Positions 2,641-52,171 of a stretch of 64,000 nt of DNA are shown piece after piece. The stretch is from NCBI RefSeq assembly GCF_000316645.1, contig NC_019684.1, positions 2,819,501 through 2,883,500 on the forward strand, given 5' to 3'. Position 1 is the first letter of the stretch; each line of letters opens with the position of its first letter. Position numbers and translations under genes: made by a program. A model generated the notes under the pieces. That model was not told where the DNA came from, did no database searches, and saw only the letters and a list, made by a program, of their open reading frames with translations. This DNA comes from Nostoc sp. PCC 7524. GTDB taxonomy: Bacteria; Cyanobacteriota; Cyanobacteriia; Cyanobacteriales; Nostocaceae.

Positions 2641-3090
2641 TTAGCCAACTGAATCTAAACTAATCTTGACAACTTTGTGCTTCTCTTCTTCAGCTTTAGG
2701 CAGTATTAGATTCAAGATACCATCTTTATATTCTGCCTTGACGTTGGTATTTTGAATACGTACAGGCAAAGGAATGACACGTTGGAATTTACCATAGTGA
2801 AATTCACTCTTGATTGTGCCTTTATCTTCCATTTTAGTTTCAGATTTACGTTCACCACTAACATAAACAGCCTTGTCAGTGACTTGTAAATCTATATCTT
2901 TGGCTTCCATACCTGGAATTTCTAACTTCAGATGCACTGCATCATCTGTTTCATGAATTTCAGCCGCAGGCACTTTTACTAAGGTTTTATCAAAAACTGT
3001 GGTAGGTAGCATATCGTCTTCAAAAAAACGATTGAGTTGGCGTTGCATGGTGTTTAATTCTTGCCAAGGGTTCCAACGTATAAGTGTCAT
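2641..3090 (-). CDS. Small heat-shock protein, Hsp20/alpha-crystallin family
   Basis: An ATP-independent cytoplasmic chaperone of 149 aa that holds unfolding proteins. After an N-terminal arm (MTLIRWNPWQELNTMQRQLN) comes the alpha-crystallin domain, with VHLKLEIPGMEAKDIDLQV, the GERKSE loop and the hallmark YKDGILNLILPKAEE near the C-terminus. I place the start at 3090 rather than the upstream in-frame ATG because AGGAGG sits a normal distance before it and family proteins begin near this point. It resembles cyanobacterial Hsp17/HspA. No CIRCE element is seen upstream; the 5' region does hold a TTCGGTT/AACCGAA inverted repeat (3186-3222). Confidence 0.92.
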   Translation of the reverse strand: MTLIRWNPWQELNTMQRQLNRFFEDDMLPTTVFDKTLVKVPAAEIHETDDAVHLKLEIPGMEAKDIDLQVTDKAVYVSGERKSETKMEDKGTIKSEFHYGKFQRVIPLPVRIQNTNVKAEYKDGILNLILPKAEEEKHKVVKISLDSVG

Positions 3091-3557
3091 ATCACTACCT
3101 CCTATCAGGATTATTTGGGGCAATCAGTTAAAGCTTTTGGTTTTTGATTTGTTTTCATAATATTACGAAATAAAAGTATTTTAAATTCGGTTTTTCTCAC
3201 CTCATAAATGATGATAACCGAACGTAAAAGTATATTTTCAAAAGTACGGTAAACCAGTATTTTATCTGTTCGGTAAACCCTATAATTGGTAGTGGGTAAG
3301 TAGATAAGCGTAAATAAGTAGAACGACTAAAAAAAACAAACTATGTGAAGTAATGTAAAAATATTGGCATCTAGTTCGTAGTAAAGACTACCCGTTGGGA
3401 AGGCTCCGCGAACAGTCCTTATTAGAGGACTAAAGTTCTACAAAGCTGTCGTCTAAATAGCAGAATTGCTTAGTTGATTACTCATAAGATTTATATTTAG
3501 CAAAGGCAATTATCAACTTTGCTGACACTATACAGTTGTCAAGAGTTCACGACAAAT
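3091..3557. other. Divergent intergenic region hsp20 / SMR gene with repeats
   Basis: 467 bases. Near the hsp20 side are an inverted repeat TTCGGTT (3186-3192) / AACCGAA (3216-3222) and two direct copies of CGGTAAACC (3247-3255, 3271-3279) 24 bp apart, which could be operator-like. At 3377-3442 lies a compound palindromic element (GTAGTAAAGACTAC, then AGTCC...GGACT, then GGACTAAAG) that recurs in shorter form at 33737-33759. Confidence 0.5.
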
Positions 3558-3878
3558 ATGTTAATCAATTGGGTTTACCTGCTTGCAGCAATTTTATTTG
3601 AAGTTTTAGGCACAACCTGCATGAAATTGTCAGAAGGATTTAATAATCTTATTCCTTCTATCTTGATATTTGTCTTTTATGGATGTGGTTTTACCTTCTC
3701 TACCCTCGCTCTTGAAAAATTGGACATTAGCTTTGCTTATTCTATTTGGTCAGGATTGGGAACGGCTTTAATTGCTAGTATTGGCATTATTTGGTTCCGT
3801 GAGTCTATGTCCTTGGTAAAATTTGCATCCATTGCTTTAATTATCATGGGTGTAATTGGTATAAATGCGAGTAAATAA
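3558..3878 (+). CDS. Small multidrug resistance (SMR) family transporter
   Basis: This 106-aa protein has four predicted membrane helices and is typical in length for the EmrE/QacE/SugE family, proton-coupled exporters of cationic compounds that work as dimers. The membrane-embedded glutamate expected of the family lies in AAILFEVLGTTCMKLSEGF, followed by FSTLALEKLDISFAYSIWSG and a last helix ending MGVIGINASK. I start it at the ATG of MLINWVYLL because the family begins directly with helix 1; the in-frame upstream codons add 13 atypical residues. The ribosome binding site is weak. Substrate cannot be read from sequence. Confidence 0.9.
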   Translation: MLINWVYLLAAILFEVLGTTCMKLSEGFNNLIPSILIFVFYGCGFTFSTLALEKLDISFAYSIWSGLGTALIASIGIIWFRESMSLVKFASIALIIMGVIGINASK

Positions 3879-4061
3879 CCCTGGTCATCATCATAGTGAT
3901 ACCTACGGCAACGTGTAGCTTATAGCCTGTGATAAAAAAACCCCATTCATATCATCATGAATGAGGTAAATAGCAGAGGAAATCAACAAAGGTGATAAGT
4001 CTAACTTTGCTTTTGAAGACAGGAGAATGTATCGCGATCGCTACCATCAACTATAATGTCA

Positions 4062-4090
4062 GCAGACTAACTCAATTAGCCTGCTTTTTT
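4062..4090 (+). terminator. Rho-independent-type terminator hairpin
   Basis: The stem is GCAG-a-CTAA / TTAG-c-CTGC with a CTCAA loop, followed directly by TTTTTT. It lies 185 bp after the SMR gene, so it may end that transcript or an unannotated small RNA encoded between 3880 and 4090. Confidence 0.6.
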
Positions 4091-4235
4091 GTTAGCAGAA
4101 GGAGCTTCAACCTTATATAATCAGGTCTGCAATCACTTTACACTCAATACTCTAACAGAGTTAATTGTGTATTTGTAGCCAGTTTGGCGCTTTTTTATAT
4201 CCGTAATTTATATGATTGTGCATTACACGAAGTCC

Positions 4236-4267
4236 TTGTAGAGACGTAGCAATGCTATTCTCTACAA
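4236..4267. repeat. Palindromic dispersed repeat (TTGTAGAGA ... TCTCTACAA)
   Basis: The arms TTGTAGAGA and TCTCTACAA enclose a short inner palindrome (TAGCAATGCTA). Related elements built on the same GTAGAGACG core occur at 41306-41336 and 53924-53953. Confidence 0.7.
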
Positions 4268-4554
4268 ATAAATTGATACACTTTATTAACTTTTTGCGAA
4301 TTTTCCAATTATGAGACTGTAGACAACAAAGTTCATCCTATTGTGTAGTATAAATGCAGCAATCAGAGACAACGGTATGTCAATATAGTATCTGTAGAGC
4401 AATAGCCGATACGAAAATTAATCGGATAAATCACAATTATAACTATATCTCAAGTATCTCCTGACCTAAGATTACAAATAATACACATAACTGTATATTC
4501 ACACTTGCTCAATTTTGAATTTTAAATTTTGTAGGCAATTTTGAATTTTAAACA

Positions 4555-47194: not shown

Positions 47195-48658
47195 ATGCTA
47201 ATTTTTGAGGAACACTTTCAAGATAATCGCTGTAGCTGGGTAACACGGGATAGTTCAGAGTGCAGTCTTTACATGGAAGTGGGTCACTATGTATTTGACC
47301 ACAAACGTCCAGGTGATGCTTATTGGCTATCGTGGAACTCGGCCGAATTCTTTTATGACAGAACTGATTTTCATATTCATATAGTTTTAGAAAAAGCTGC
47401 TGGTGTAGATGATCATGGGTACGGTTTTGTCTGGGGACTGTTAGATGATCGCAATTTCTTTGAGTTTGTGATTTCTGGTAATGCTTGTTATCGCATTGCT
47501 GAAGCTAGAAATGGTAGTTTTGTCAATTACACAGATTGGAAACGCTGCGATCACATTCAACGTGGTAATGCTGTTAACTTACTAGAGATTTGCCGTGTAG
47601 GTAACTGGGTAGAATTTTACATCAACAGTACCCTTGTAGATAAGTTCCCCGCCGAAAAGTTAATGGATGTCCCAGGCAGAAATTTTGGTTTCATCATCCA
47701 TGACACCATCAAAATGAAAGTTCATAGCCTCATGGTAAGTGCGCCAGATACGGAAAAGGACTTCAGTGAGGGCAATTCGGAGCTTTATGACTCCAGATGT
47801 GAAACCAAAGCTTCCTTCATTGAGCATGAGCCACCTGATGATGATACCTTAGAGCAAGTGTTTGCAGACTTACAGGCGTTAATTGGGCATGAACGCACCA
47901 AGCACCAACTTTTTTCTTTAGCTAACTTCCTCAAAGTCCAAACCGCACGTCAACAAAGAGGACTCAAAACCGTAGAAACATCACTACACCTGATGCTGTA
48001 CGGGCCACCAGGAACCGGGAAGACAACAATAGCCCGCTTAGTTGGGCGTTTATATAAACAATTGGGATGGCTTGAGCGTGGACACGTTGTGGAAACTGAT
48101 CGCGCAGGTATTGTCAGTGGATATATTGGACAAACGGCATTACGAGTAGAAAATGCTGTTCAGCAAGCCCTTGATGGTGTATTGTTCATCGACGAAGCCC
48201 ACGCTTTAGTTCCCGAAGATAGTCCCAATGACTATGGTAAAGAAGCATTGCAGATATTAATTAAACGCATGGAAGATAACCGCGATCGCTTGGCGGTAGT
48301 GATCGCCGGGTACACGGAGGAAATGGATCGTTTACTCGAATCCAACCCTGGTTTTAAATCCCGTCTCCATCGTTTATTTTATCTGGATCATTACACTCCC
48401 CATGAGTTGTTATTAATTTTTAAGAAATTCTGTCACGACAATGGCTACACCCTTGATTCATCAGCCCATATCATCTTACAAGCCACCTTTGAACTTGCTT
48501 ACGCCAACCGCGACAAAAGTTTTGGTAATGGACGTTTTGCCCGCGCCTTATTTGAACGCAGCATTGAAAAACAAGCCAACCGCATCGTCCATGATATCCA
48601 CACGCTAAACGATTCTCAGTTAATACTGATTACTGCTGAAGATTTATCTGGAAATTAG
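47195..48658 (+). CDS. Beta-sandwich domain fused to a CbbX/SpoVK-like AAA+ ATPase
   Basis: A 487-aa protein. Residues about 1-190 look like a concanavalin/LamG-type jelly roll (LIFEEHFQDNRCSWVTRDSS, YGFVWGLLDDRNFFEFVISG, VNLLEICRVGNWVEFYINST). Residues about 230-480 are an AAA+ module of the CbbX/SpoVK group: Walker A YGPPGTGKTTIARLVG (about 270), the pore-loop region GIVSGYIGQTALRV, Walker B VLFIDEAHALVPE (about 330), sensor 1 LAVVIAGYTEEM and sensor 2 FGNGRFARALFERS. CbbX remodels Rubisco; here no Rubisco gene is near and the N-terminal domain is different, so the client is unknown. Confidence 0.85.
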   Translation: MLIFEEHFQDNRCSWVTRDSSECSLYMEVGHYVFDHKRPGDAYWLSWNSAEFFYDRTDFHIHIVLEKAAGVDDHGYGFVWGLLDDRNFFEFVISGNACYRIAEARNGSFVNYTDWKRCDHIQRGNAVNLLEICRVGNWVEFYINSTLVDKFPAEKLMDVPGRNFGFIIHDTIKMKVHSLMVSAPDTEKDFSEGNSELYDSRCETKASFIEHEPPDDDTLEQVFADLQALIGHERTKHQLFSLANFLKVQTARQQRGLKTVETSLHLMLYGPPGTGKTTIARLVGRLYKQLGWLERGHVVETDRAGIVSGYIGQTALRVENAVQQALDGVLFIDEAHALVPEDSPNDYGKEALQILIKRMEDNRDRLAVVIAGYTEEMDRLLESNPGFKSRLHRLFYLDHYTPHELLLIFKKFCHDNGYTLDSSAHIILQATFELAYANRDKSFGNGRFARALFERSIEKQANRIVHDIHTLNDSQLILITAEDLSGN

Positions 48659-48811
48659 GAATTTCAGATAAATGAATTTAGGGGCTTGTACCATCAAGAA
48701 ATTATTGCTCAAAAAATATCTGAGATTTAGGGTATCAATTTAGGAACCATCACTTTCCGAAAAGATACCAGGCAAGGTTGTATTTTTACATCAGCATACT
48801 GTAGAGAAAAT

Positions 48812-49116
48812 ATGATGTTGAAGCCAATCAAAAAACTATCTCATTTAATTGCTGGAGCAACCCTAATTGCTGTGGGAACTATTGGTATTACACAACAATC
48901 TGAAGCTGCTTCTGTAACTTGGAATTTAAACAACTTCATATTTACAGATGGAGCCAAAGCAACAGGCTCTTTTGTTTGGGATTCTGATGTTAATTCTGTT
49001 TTAGACTTTAATTTTTTCATTACAGATGGGACAAATGATGACTTTTCCGCCATTAACTATTCTCGAATTAATGGTGACTCGGCAACAATATTCAGTGATG
49101 ATGAGGACATTTTATC
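48812..49116 (+). pseudogene. PEP-CTERM protein, N-terminal part (split by the ISL3 element)
   Basis: This 5' part encodes a signal peptide (KLSHLIAGATLIAVGTIGIT, cleavage near SEAAS) and 65 or so residues of a secreted protein (VTWNLNNFIFTDGAKATGSF). It is cut after ATTTTATC (49109-49116). The same eight bases restart the gene at 51434, in the same frame, so the original protein of about 195 aa can be rebuilt. Left as is, translation would end nine codons into the element. Confidence 0.88.
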
Positions 49117-49143
49117 GGTTCTTGGCAACTTTTGGTGATCTTA

Positions 49144-49190
49144 GCCGGGGGAAGGCAGAGGGCAGAGGGCAGAAGGCAGAAGTCGGAAGA
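49144..49190. repeat. GGCAGAG/GGCAGAA heptamer tract inside the left end of the ISL3 element
   Basis: Five or so heptamers (GGCAGAG, GGCAGAA) directly next to the left inverted repeat; the inverted counterpart is at 51367-51402. Confidence 0.8.
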
Positions 49191-49205
49191 GTAGAAGTAA
49201 TAATT

Positions 49206-49556
49206 TCAACCCTTGAGTTTGTTTAAAGTAGCAACTAATATACTTTGCATTTCCTCAACTTCATTTAATACGGGAGTGAAAAGGTCTTTATCAGCTAAAT
49301 CTACTTCTTTGGCAATGATTAATTGCGTATCAAGTTCTCTCAAAGAACCTAGCGCAATATGTAAAAACTGGATATATTCTGGTTTGGAACGCCTACCATA
49401 GCCTTCAGCTATATTAGACGCTACAGATACGGATGAACGGCGTATTTGACTAGTTAAACCGTACAATTCTGACTGAGGAAATAGGCGGGTAAATTTATAA
49501 CAATTGATAGCAAGTTGAACTGCCCTTTGCCAGATAAACTGATTTCTATAACTCAT
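49206..49556 (-). CDS. Four-helix-bundle protein (23S rRNA intervening-sequence type), IS passenger
   Basis: A 116-aa all-helical protein of the family named after proteins encoded in 23S rRNA intervening sequences. Markers are IWQRAVQLAINCYKFTRLFP, YGLTSQIRRSSVSVASNIAE with GYGR, YIQFLHIALGSLRELDTQLI and VEEMQSILVATLNKL. Its molecular role is unclear; the family is also linked to retron-like or diversity-generating elements, where it binds nucleic acid. Here it is the second gene of an ISL3 element, with no Shine-Dalgarno seen, and may be expressed from the transposase transcript. Confidence 0.88.
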   Translation of the reverse strand: MSYRNQFIWQRAVQLAINCYKFTRLFPQSELYGLTSQIRRSSVSVASNIAEGYGRRSKPEYIQFLHIALGSLRELDTQLIIAKEVDLADKDLFTPVLNEVEEMQSILVATLNKLKG

Positions 49557-49588
49557 ATAATCAAGTGTAAATTGTCAAAATTTTCTTT

Positions 49589-51301
49589 TCAAATAGCCAA
49601 CAGAAATCGTCGTTCTAGTAAGTCTATCTTGGCGCGACCATACATCTGCCGTTTTAACATTTTCAGTCGATTAATATGCCCTTCAACTGGGCCATTACTA
49701 ACTGACATAGTTACACCTGCTTTCACAGCATCGTAGTCAGACTCTAAACTAACAGCAAAGGAGCGCAACAAAGAAACCAAGCTGTTTTTAGCTTTGTTTA
49801 ACCAAGCATCGAGCTGCTCAGGCAGGCGTTGACGCACAAGAGATGCAAACTGTTGTGCTAGTTCAATAGCTGACTTCAAATCCGAATGGGCTTTTTGTAG
49901 TTGAGCGATGACTTCACGCTCATTAGGCTGTATTAATTCTGGTCGTCGCAAGACTAAAGCTGTGACGCGACTGGGGGTGAGAGGACGATGGGCGCAAGAG
50001 CTAACCCTGGGGGAAGCGTTTTTTCTTGAACCTTTTGCTGGCTCAAATCCGGGCAAGGTCTTGAGATAACGAGTGAAGCGAGCGACCGTGGCATAACTAC
50101 CGGTATAGCCGCAGGTGCGAATTTCTTCAAACAGTTCTTGGGTGTTGTGGTTCCCGCTATTCCAGCGACTGAGGAGGTAATCATGATAAGGGTTGAGAAG
50201 ACTCAGACCGTGGTCGCTACGTTCACGACGTTCGGTAAAAGTTGAGCTACGCAAGTAATTGAATACGGTAGTTTTAGAAACTCCCAGCTCTTGAGCGATT
50301 GCTAGCCCTGATAAGCCAATAGACCGCAGTCTCCAAACTTGCTCATGGATTTCTCTGCGTCTATCCCGTGCTTTGGCGGATTGAACTTTTCTTTTTAAAG
50401 ATGTGTTTTGGGGAAACCTTGGCACAACTGGACTCTTATTAGTCTCAGCAATCATGGAAAGGTTGTTTGCTGTTTCCACCTCTAAATGCACTTTAGTATC
50501 AGTATTAAAGACTTGTTTTTCCACTTCTTTTAGTGTTTTGGCGTGATTACCAAAGACTTGATAAAGCGTTTGAGATAAGTTCTGCAATAGATGAAAGCGG
50601 TCTGCAACTTGAATGGCTTCTGGCGCACCTTGGCGAATACCACTTTCATAAGTTTTTGACCGATCTCGTGAGACGACTTTGACACCAGGGTGAGCTTTTA
50701 ACCATTCTGCCAAAGTTTCAGCCTTTGCATCTTTGAGTAGAGCAATTGGTCGTCTGCGTTCGAGATCAATTAGTGCTGTGCCGTAAGTTTTACATTTACG
50801 AAAACAAAAGTCGTCTACCCCAAGAGTATGTGGCGTTACGATGGGTGGTAGTGGAATTGAGCGGACTAAATTTAATAGCGTGTTGCGAGAAACTTTTATC
50901 CCCAAGTCCTGTGAGAGTCTTACCCCTGCTGCACCACCATTAGCTAAACCAATCGCACTCAGTCTTTGAGCTAAACGTAGAGTTCTTCTCGCCCAAGGTG
51001 CGGTAACATTGGTCAGCCTTTCTGCAAAAATGCGCCGTTTACACAATTTATTAAGGCAAAAAAACTTCCGCACCCTTAACTGTAAAGTAATGCTGTAATC
51101 AGCCCAGGGTAAATCTGCTAACTTTCGCTCATAGCGACTATGAATTTTATGAGTTGGTTGGTTACAAACTGGACAATTAACTACTCTATTGATAGCAGAA
51201 ACAATCAACTTTATCTGAGTTTTTATCTCGTCAAGAATGCAATTTTCAAGTTTCAGGTTTGCTGAATCTGGTAATAGATAACTTAGCACTGACATAACCA
51301 A
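49589..51301 (-). CDS. ISL3-family transposase
   Basis: A 570-aa transposase, on the long side for ISL3. The N-terminal zinc fingers are CPVCNQPTHKIHSRY and FFCLNKLCKRRIFAERL. Central DDE landmarks are LGVDDFCFRKCKTYGTALID (first Asp), VVSRDRSKTYESGIRQGAPE with AIQVADRFHLLQNL (second Asp), and near the end SNGPVEGHINRLKMLKRQMY (Glu). A helix-turn-helix insert (GLSGLAIAQELGVSKTTVFN) stands in the middle. The frame is intact, so the element may be mobile. Confidence 0.94.
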   Translation of the reverse strand: MVMSVLSYLLPDSANLKLENCILDEIKTQIKLIVSAINRVVNCPVCNQPTHKIHSRYERKLADLPWADYSITLQLRVRKFFCLNKLCKRRIFAERLTNVTAPWARRTLRLAQRLSAIGLANGGAAGVRLSQDLGIKVSRNTLLNLVRSIPLPPIVTPHTLGVDDFCFRKCKTYGTALIDLERRRPIALLKDAKAETLAEWLKAHPGVKVVSRDRSKTYESGIRQGAPEAIQVADRFHLLQNLSQTLYQVFGNHAKTLKEVEKQVFNTDTKVHLEVETANNLSMIAETNKSPVVPRFPQNTSLKRKVQSAKARDRRREIHEQVWRLRSIGLSGLAIAQELGVSKTTVFNYLRSSTFTERRERSDHGLSLLNPYHDYLLSRWNSGNHNTQELFEEIRTCGYTGSYATVARFTRYLKTLPGFEPAKGSRKNASPRVSSCAHRPLTPSRVTALVLRRPELIQPNEREVIAQLQKAHSDLKSAIELAQQFASLVRQRLPEQLDAWLNKAKNSLVSLLRSFAVSLESDYDAVKAGVTMSVSNGPVEGHINRLKMLKRQMYGRAKIDLLERRFLLAI

Positions 51302-51433
51302 GCTGAGGCTTATCCCTCAAATGTTTGATGGAGTGAAGTTTGACGTATCTCAATTATATCTTTCTAACTTCTGCCTTCTGCCTTCTGCCCTCTGCCTTCC
51401 CCCAACCAAGATCACCAAAAGTTGCCAAGAACC

Positions 51434-51724
51434 ATTTTATCATTCAGTTCTCCAAGAAATGCCTTGAGTAGTAGACCGAGAGAGTTCCGTATTAGTATTG
51501 CCTCTTTTGACCTGTTAGATATTCCATCTGCCTCACTCGGTTTAGTTGACAGTCCCTACGCTCGCAACGGTTTTACGGAGTGTTACAATTGCGCCCCATT
51601 TAATGCCGGTCTCCCTGGAGCTTTCTTATCTTCTATTCCTGTTTCTGTTCCTGAGCCTGCCAGTATTGCCGGATTGGCATTGATCGGAATTGCCATTACA
51701 ACTACACGTCGCAAACTACAGTAA
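51434..51724 (+). pseudogene. PEP-CTERM protein, C-terminal part (split by the ISL3 element)
   Basis: The continuation of 48812-49116 in the same frame after the 8-bp duplication: ILSFSSPRNALSSRPREFRI, then RNGFTECYNCAPFNAGLPGA, ending in the sorting signal VPEPASIAGLALIGIAITTT and a basic tail. It has no start codon of its own apart from a TTG in the inverted repeat. Loss of the signal peptide means the fragment can no longer be exported. Confidence 0.87.
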
Positions 51725-51749
51725 TACTACAATGGTGAATATTAAGTAG

Positions 51750-51813
51750 GGTGTGTTACGGCTATGCAAGGATTTCGGAACGTAAGAGAGTGAGAATTAG
51801 CCGTAACGCACCA
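51750..51813. repeat. Palindromic element GGTGTGTTACGGCTA ... TAGCCGTAACGCACC
   Basis: 15-bp arms with one mismatch around a 34-base interior, between the split PEP-CTERM gene and the toxin remnant. It is similar in architecture to the 38952 and 57370 elements but has different sequence. Confidence 0.7.
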
Positions 51814-51855
51814 ACCACCGATCGCTCTGATATTTCCTAGCTACAATACCTGATG

Positions 51856-51952
51856 TTAAATTTCAAGATTTCTTTGTTTCCAGTAATTTGGTTTGCGCTT
51901 ACCATGAGCTATTGCTATAATCCAAATCACTTCTTCAAGCTCCGTATAAACT
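51856..51952 (-). pseudogene. RelE/ParE-type toxin, C-terminal remnant
   Basis: After the antitoxin stop, an open frame without a start encodes VYTELEEVIWIIAIAHGKRK followed by PNYWKQRNLEI. This matches the last strands of RelE/ParE toxins, where the ending I-x-A-h-x-H-x-x-R-x-P-x-Y-W is typical. The N-terminal two thirds are missing, so the toxin is dead. The frame continues upstream into the antitoxin gene (out of frame with it), suggesting a deletion that joined the two genes. Confidence 0.75.
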
Positions 51953-52171
51953 TCACGAATACTTTTCTCGTAACTCTTCAAAAACTTGATATATTGGCTC
52001 TCCAATAACTGTGTTGCAATTAATATCTTCCAACCTTTTACTTAATTCCGTATCCCAAACAGTTTCTAAATCATCATCTAGAGAATGAATTAAAAAGTAA
52101 GCAATTTCAGCACGTTCTTTTGCAGAAAGCTGAGAAAGTTCAAGTTTAAGTTTTTCGGCAGTTTCACTCAT
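51953..52171 (-). CDS. Antitoxin of the putative addiction module component family
   Basis: A 72-aa protein typical of the small antitoxins paired with RelE/ParE toxins: MSETAEKLKLELSQLSAKER, AEIAYFLIHSLDD and ETVWDTELSKRLEDI. The start at 52171 is family-like; the seven codons upstream are probably not used. The partner toxin just downstream is truncated, leaving a solitary antitoxin that may still repress its own promoter or neutralise a related toxin elsewhere. Confidence 0.8.
   Translation of the reverse strand: MSETAEKLKLELSQLSAKERAEIAYFLIHSLDDDLETVWDTELSKRLEDINCNTVIGEPIYQVFEELREKYS

Follow-up and report, generated by a model that had tools for sequence, protein, structure and literature searches.

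The window analysed here, a 64,000-nucleotide stretch of Nostoc sp. PCC 7524 (assembly GCF_000316645.1, contig NC_019684.1, positions 2,819,501 to 2,883,500 of the forward strand), contains at 49117-51433 a complete insertion sequence (IS) of the ISL3 family, 2,317 bp long, in which the transposase gene is followed by a passenger gene for a four-helix-bundle protein of family PF05635 (IVP) and both genes are enclosed by inverted arrays of the heptamer GGCAGAR. The comparisons described below support the view that, within this ISL3 lineage, the passenger gene is inherited together with the arrays as a single unit. The original prediction, made from the letters of the window, had placed a complete ISL3 element with an intact transposase and an exact 8-bp duplication at these positions, together with a co-directional passenger of the family known from 23S rRNA intervening sequences, and was right on each of these points. 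The features are as follows.

49109-49116, no strand: target-site duplication, left copy, ATTTTATC (other genome copies have their own 8-bp duplications)
49117-49142, plus strand: terminal inverted repeat, passenger side, 26 bp, same as the opposite end
49154-49181, plus strand: heptamer array GGCAGAR at the passenger-side end, four units, inverted with respect to the other array
49206-49556, minus strand: passenger gene, 116 amino acids, PF05635 / TIGR02436 four-helix-bundle protein (IVP)
49589-51301, minus strand: ISL3 transposase gene, 570 amino acids from TTG
51369-51396, minus strand: heptamer array at the transposase-side end, four units, reading inward on the opposite strand
51408-51433, minus strand: terminal inverted repeat, transposase side
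51434-51441, no strand: target-site duplication, right copy, ATTTTATC

The order of parts is end, array, transposase, IVP, array, end. The outermost 26 bp (GGTTCTTGGCAACTTTTGGTGATCTT) are identical at both ends, as had been predicted; what had been missed are the tandem heptamers just inside them, which are inverted relative to one another with the G-rich strand reading inward and which, because they adjoin both ends, carry the inverted repeat on to 72 nt at 92% identity. The transposase reading frame is intact (PF01610, E = 6.8e-31; 339 bits against NF033550, ‘ISL3 family transposase’, for which the cut-off is 180) and contains the Pfam domains DDE_Tnp_ISL3 and Zn_ribbon_ISL3; at E ≤ 0.001 it also matches DUF2481 and HTH_11, each below its own cut-off. 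An in-frame ATG at 51295, two codons past the TTG, is the likelier start. The passenger lies 32 bp behind the transposase gene and in the same direction. Its sole Pfam match at E ≤ 0.001 is PF05635 (23S_rRNA_IVP, E = 9.8e-37), it scores above the curated profile cut-off and it has the fold of the PF05635 / TIGR02436 family; the AlphaFold2 model of the monomer has a pLDDT of 96.8, and the structures 2gsc and 2rld have five chains each. The DDE transposase (PF01610 / NF033550), the inverted repeats starting with GG and the 8-bp duplications are those of ISL3, and the element departs from the usual (non-obligatory) single-gene layout of that family by its second gene.

Ten copies of the element were found in this genome (6.72 Mb, three contigs), all 100% identical over the aligned sequence, and the passenger is present and identical in every one. 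Nine copies, including that of the window, are full length and the tenth matches positions 47-2317, its passenger-side array being interrupted by an insertion of about 1.6 kb (2817-4399 of locus L307) with a long open reading frame that we take to be an IS110-type transposase. Exact 8-bp duplications flank seven of the nine full copies and those of the other two agree at seven of eight positions. The genome has three further PF05635 genes, at 72, 39 and 28% identity. We lean towards regarding the element as a recently active ISL3-family IS of which the second gene is an integral part, with a confidence slightly above the midpoint that is shared with the whole of the explanation given below.

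A scan of genome contigs for the transposase, from which the best 80 of 227 relatives were retained, showed that the passenger is carried by ISL3 relatives whose transposases are approximately 51-100% identical, lying behind the transposase and co-directional with it, apart from a flipped gene in L085 and a fragmented one in L045. Elements were delimited via their terminal repeats, and both ends could be located for 45 distinct ISL3 elements, including one (L124) from the Nostoc sp. PCC 7524 genome. When a strict rule is applied, 20 of the 23 passenger-bearing elements have an array at each end and none of the 22 passenger-less relatives has one at either end. As to the three exceptions, the left end taken for L052 is that of a neighbouring ISL3 element, and the arrays of L055 and L091 are visible, if too imperfect for the strict rule; L085, with its flipped gene, has kept both arrays. 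Distant cyanobacterial elements (e.g. L133, L145, L146 and L152), 1.8-1.9 kb long with transposases about 45% identical, have ends of the same kind but lack the passenger. When presence of the passenger is mapped on a tree of 97 transposases, seven changes are needed against a shuffled mean of 25, a count that scores as passenger-less L050, L064 and L079 (transposase or contig cut off) and L070 and L071 (fragments). The passenger of L062 accompanies a transposase outside the main clade, on an open fork, and on the IVP tree, whose 107 columns resolve little, the IS-borne genes require three changes where the least forced is one; a single origin of the IS-borne IVP is possible. Three relatives at 72-85% identity were found in viral contigs.

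Whether copies without the passenger exist in other genomes had been put forward by the original prediction as a way of judging its proposal. The passenger's transposase clade has six such members there, five of which are cut off, interrupted or fragments, leaving L054 as the remaining case. The transposase-side array is retained in L050, L064, L079 and L054; L073, which begins within the transposase, and L088, which is interrupted, show neither array nor passenger. At 5390-6060 of L054, about 230 bp behind the transposase and at the expected place of the passenger, is a sequence (GTGCGACCCGAAAGTCGC) that presumably resembles the start of a group II intron. A different kind of derivative is seen at L074 (3362-5232) and L132, the same element, where an ISL3 copy is internally deleted to 1,871 bp with loss of the middle of the transposase; its ends and arrays persist, its passenger frame is open and its 8-bp duplication is exact.

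For 21 loci with a synonymous divergence (dS) under 1.5 in both genes, the ratio of nonsynonymous to synonymous divergence (dN/dS) was calculated against the window copy (this set omits L132, includes L044 and L118 from one genome, and has only 51 passenger codons from L092). The values for the passenger were 0-0.079 (median 0.035) and those for the transposase 0.165-0.384 (median 0.259), the passenger being the lower at all 21 loci. The passenger is under strong purifying selection and is far more constrained than the transposase. Among solo PF05635 genes the pairs within L168/L170, L157/L159/L160 and L174/L177 gave 0.032-0.078 and others up to 0.48. Third-codon divergences of passenger and transposase rise together (Spearman 0.70, 28 loci, 368 pairs; 0/1000 permutations as high), so that the expectation that the two trees would agree holds broadly, with the exceptions described below.

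The family is not confined to this element. Across a survey of the order (243 genomes, that of Nostoc sp. PCC 7524 included) the transposase was found at E ≤ 1e-60 in 19 genomes and a relative of the passenger at E ≤ 1e-15 in 83, and in the phylum IVP genes were found in 74 of the 146 genomes of Cyanobacteriota sampled. The passenger family does, as had been envisaged, occur in many unrelated places, which makes the element one host of a more widespread module. The flanks of PF05635 genes were examined in a set of 102 loci (29 best hits from the order survey, 30 best and 40 lower hits from the phylum sample, and the three further genes of the Nostoc sp. PCC 7524 genome), of which 94 were usable once duplicates and short flanks had been dropped; the set is non-random, contains some related copies (genome G064) and includes the IS-borne L154, scored as unmatched. 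By a rule blind to the repeat unit (period 6-9 within 400 bp), arrays lie upstream of 76, downstream of 83 and on both sides of 70 of the 94 genes. Matching inverted arrays flank 62 of the 94. When each upstream flank was paired with the downstream flank of another gene, 20 shuffles averaged 4.2 such matches and reached 9 at most, and 500 placements drawn at random in the window and in other flanks yielded two-sided arrays 12 times and matching ones never. The period at the 62 loci is 7 (46 loci), 8 (13) or 9 (3); on the sense strand G outnumbers C in the upstream array at 58 of these loci. The units vary (GGCAGAA, near the type of the window, GGAAGAA, TGAAGTA, GTGTAGG, TTAGGGG, AGGAGTC and others), and their similarity climbs with that of the proteins (Mantel r = 0.31, 63 loci, 0/2000): the proportion of pairs that agree at 12 of 14 bases is 0.01 at 20-35% protein identity and 0.67 above 70%. 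Because the same pairing surrounds so many relatives of the gene, these results suggest that gene and repeats work as one unit.

Outside Cyanobacteriota seven plasmid loci were considered, from Bacteroidota, Spirochaetota, Bacillota, Chloroflexota (two), Gemmatimonadota and Pseudomonadota. Only two of the seven pass the strict array rule, while a best inverted 21-mer of 17 or more is found at six of them compared with 0/42 mispaired flanks and 8/172 random placements; arrays seemed present by eye in all seven, a reading that we have not relied upon. On a plasmid of Azospirillum lipoferum 4B (L275, 1480-1790) there is an unannotated IVP-like frame between inverted near-repeats in an apparent 23S rRNA gene, by eye an apparent intervening sequence. 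Two other IVP genes lie amid restriction-modification genes, one between hsdS and hsdR in Monoglobus (L271, 1456-1812) and one between helicase and N-6 methylase genes in Chlorohelix (L273, 1450-1815). Outer ends beyond the arrays, that is terminal repeats with target duplications, were considered at IVP loci and rejected: a scan without a control gave candidates at nine of 97 loci, of which two were the G064 element described below and the others array-like or possibly chance.

Arrays of this type also occur outside the IS. The pattern GGCAGANGGCAGANGGCAG has 87 matches in the Nostoc sp. PCC 7524 genome, 38 of them in IS copies by position, and its reverse has none there; of 16 array loci examined outside the IS, taken from the 30 matches listed first, 10 are accompanied by an inverted partner no more than 300 bp away. 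A gene-less repeat of 219 bp with GGCAGAR arrays at its ends is present in ten copies at 99-100% identity (L309-L318), nine of them full length and one over 215/219 bp, out of 25 matches in all, the others being at 72-99% and partly shorter. The ten copies lie in differing surroundings, share the sequence of the left end (TTATCAAGAAAGGCAG) and that of the right end (TGCCTTCTTCAA), and have no obvious target duplication. In genome G064 a PF05635 gene with AGGTTTC-type arrays lies between different, unrelated ends (ACTGAYGTTACGCA), and in three of the copies 5-bp duplications could be read. Another small repeat (CTGAGTTCGG...CCGAACTGAG) is found behind the same point of several of the IVP copies there (L253-L263) and has been co-amplified.

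The explanation that we favour, though by no great measure, is that an ISL3 lineage captured an IVP gene with its cognate arrays and that the protein recognises the arrays at the ends of the element. An ancestral ISL3 element would have captured the PF05635 gene together with the inverted heptamer arrays belonging to it, and the DDE transposase would carry out cutting and joining. IVP, going by its relatives a pentamer of four-helix bundles (a homopentamer is stated for the Xanthomonas campestris protein in PMC4990558), is predicted to recognise the inward-facing heptamers at both ends and may bring the two DNA ends, or those of the RNA made from the element, together in a complex that helps or regulates transposition. 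It might also work in trans on other array-bounded sequences of the genome. For the suggestion of the original prediction that the passenger may bind the ends the support is circumstantial; its observation is confirmed and its interpretation overall partly supported.

Several points weigh against this explanation. The 20 of 23 elements with both arrays are not independent cases because the elements are related, nor are the dN/dS comparisons independent since all share one reference. Low dN/dS is moreover a property of the family and not just of its IS-borne members (close solo pairs, dS under 1, gave 0.03-0.35), so that it marks a functional gene rather than one specialised for the IS, and the covariation of unit and protein could reflect plain common descent alone. 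L054 combines a transposase matched over residues 3-569 with an array on the transposase side, but its far end was not located and nothing in the 3.5 kb behind the transposase matches IVP (best E = 0.43); this locus is perhaps interrupted, perhaps a genuine exception. Relatives lacking both IVP and arrays are multi-copy in genomes G045 and G090, from which it follows that the module is not essential to ISL3. Among the approximately one dozen similar IVP-element copies in G064 are several that multiplied with an interrupted gene, which makes the gene dispensable in cis in that genome. Finally, transposase and IVP have clearly been exchanged between elements: third positions of L059 and L060 differ by 5% in the transposase and 27% in IVP, and for L048 and L059 the divergence is 0.57 in the transposase and 0.17 in the passenger.

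The strongest competitor places the module at the level of RNA, where the arrays would pair in the transcript as a long stem bound by IVP and the DNA ends would not be the target; binding of the stem could shield the transposase message, or RNase III could excise the element from host transcripts and so lessen damage. The two ends of the element do fold into one hairpin, RNase III cuts rRNA intervening sequences at such stems (as stated in PMC4990558) and the fold of IVP is that of an RNA-protein component. Set against this, the order of units in the two arms exceeds the shuffled expectation at 28 solo loci, falls below it at 16 and equals it at seven, with only two of the 51 reaching the 5% level in a test that has little power where the units are alike. 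Unit order is not clearly above chance, so exact pairing is not evidently selected, and in-register pairing of the arms was set aside as unsupported. Gene-less array-ended repeats, moreover, disperse. We prefer recognition of the ends because the arms share unit identity and not clearly unit order and because such gene-less repeats spread; the RNA-level reading remains strong, if in our estimate unlikely.

Slightly less probable again is that IVP and its arrays are a selfish module riding on IS and other elements, the IS gaining nothing and the gene being maintained by selection for the spread of the module itself through array-ended repeats. This would account for gene and arrays within the unrelated ends of G064, for ISL3 relatives that manage without them, for the exchange of IVP copies between ISL3 elements and for the finding that, among 32 loci, a transposase match in the sequence examined was seen only at the IS-borne L154 and L156. 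It sits less well with the long co-inheritance with the transposase at 28 loci and with arrays placed just inside both ends in 20 of the 23 passenger-bearing elements by the strict rule. That an IVP gene fell into this one copy by accident, the outcome that the original prediction had named as fatal to its proposal, is refuted, common as such genes are in the phylum, by its presence in all ten genome copies, where no passenger-less copy exists, and in 22 delimited elements from other records, and by the strong purifying selection on it, and is most improbable.

More tentatively, and with a confidence that stops a little short of the midpoint, we propose that PF05635 proteins and their cognate inverted arrays are a general two-part mobile system found across bacterial phyla, in which the protein would be a sequence-specific end-recognition factor with a lineage-specific code of 7-9 bases, the cyanobacterial heptamers would be scattered target ends, rRNA intervening sequences would be one landing site and the ISL3 element of the window would be a hybrid. 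PF05635 proteins are common and had no known function according to a paper of 2016 (PMC4990558), and their link to heptamer repeats makes both directly testable: if recognition is true, a given IVP should bind the heptamer that flanks its own gene but no heptamer of a different lineage. In the ISL3 element, a compact and recently active example, recognition would be measurable as transposition rate.

Around the element, the frame that it splits (48812-49108 and 51442-51724) encodes a C-terminus reading VPEPASIAGLALIGIAITTTRRKLQ and is presumably a PEP-CTERM protein gene. Rfam gave no match at gathering score in 48500-52000. The idea that the passenger is a defence gene was rejected, PADLOC having given no match.

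Like ISPpu12 and other members of the ISL3 family, the element has a DDE_Tnp_ISL3 transposase, terminal inverted repeats and 8-bp duplications. ISPpu12a, an ISL3 element of 3372 bp, has a predicted CzcD passenger gene (as given in PMC4447125), so ISL3 passengers are already on record. The present lineage differs from known ISL3 elements in that its passenger is a PF05635 protein, kept over a wide range of transposase identity, and in the inverted heptamer arrays at its ends; a search of Creative Commons-licensed papers in PubMed Central (PMC) revealed no published ISL3 element with a PF05635 passenger and end arrays, and no paper linking PF05635 genes with flanking arrays as a general rule. 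A 187-nt miniature inverted-repeat transposable element of Microcystis has been linked to ISL3 ends (PMC11448079), in the main text of which ‘four helix’ does not occur. The 23S rRNA intervening sequences also have a PF05635 gene between inverted complementary ends, comparable to the 72-nt arms found here, and tandem heptamers precede the S23p gene in one of them, from Coxiella (as described in PMC4990558). They differ from the element in that it is non-rRNA, splitting a protein-coding frame rather than lying in a 23S rRNA helix, is mobilised by a DDE transposase and has arrays at both ends of a two-gene unit. The dispersed arrays resemble the short tandem heptamer repeats (STRR) of cyanobacterial genomes. 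Heptamer repeats that have been studied, GGGGA(C/T)T in Nostoc and GGGAATC in Xanthomonas, are described as generally not associated with mobile elements (PMC4692102), and neither ‘S23’ nor ‘four helix’ occurs in the main text of that paper; the present arrays, unlike the repeats as described there, are tied to IVP genes and an IS. Compared with Avd of diversity-generating retroelements, the recognised genes of the element are the transposase and the passenger only. Repetitive extragenic palindromic (REP) sequences offer a further parallel, with one protein family, the REP-associated tyrosine transposases (RAYTs), between inverted copies of short repeats, which are dispersed in gene-less form as well. 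RAYTs belong to the HUH tyrosine transposases, whereas the passenger matches only PF05635 and by Pfam neither gene of the element is an HUH transposase. In comparison with these systems the element is a new variant of ISL3, and its gene-plus-array module is the part that may be new.

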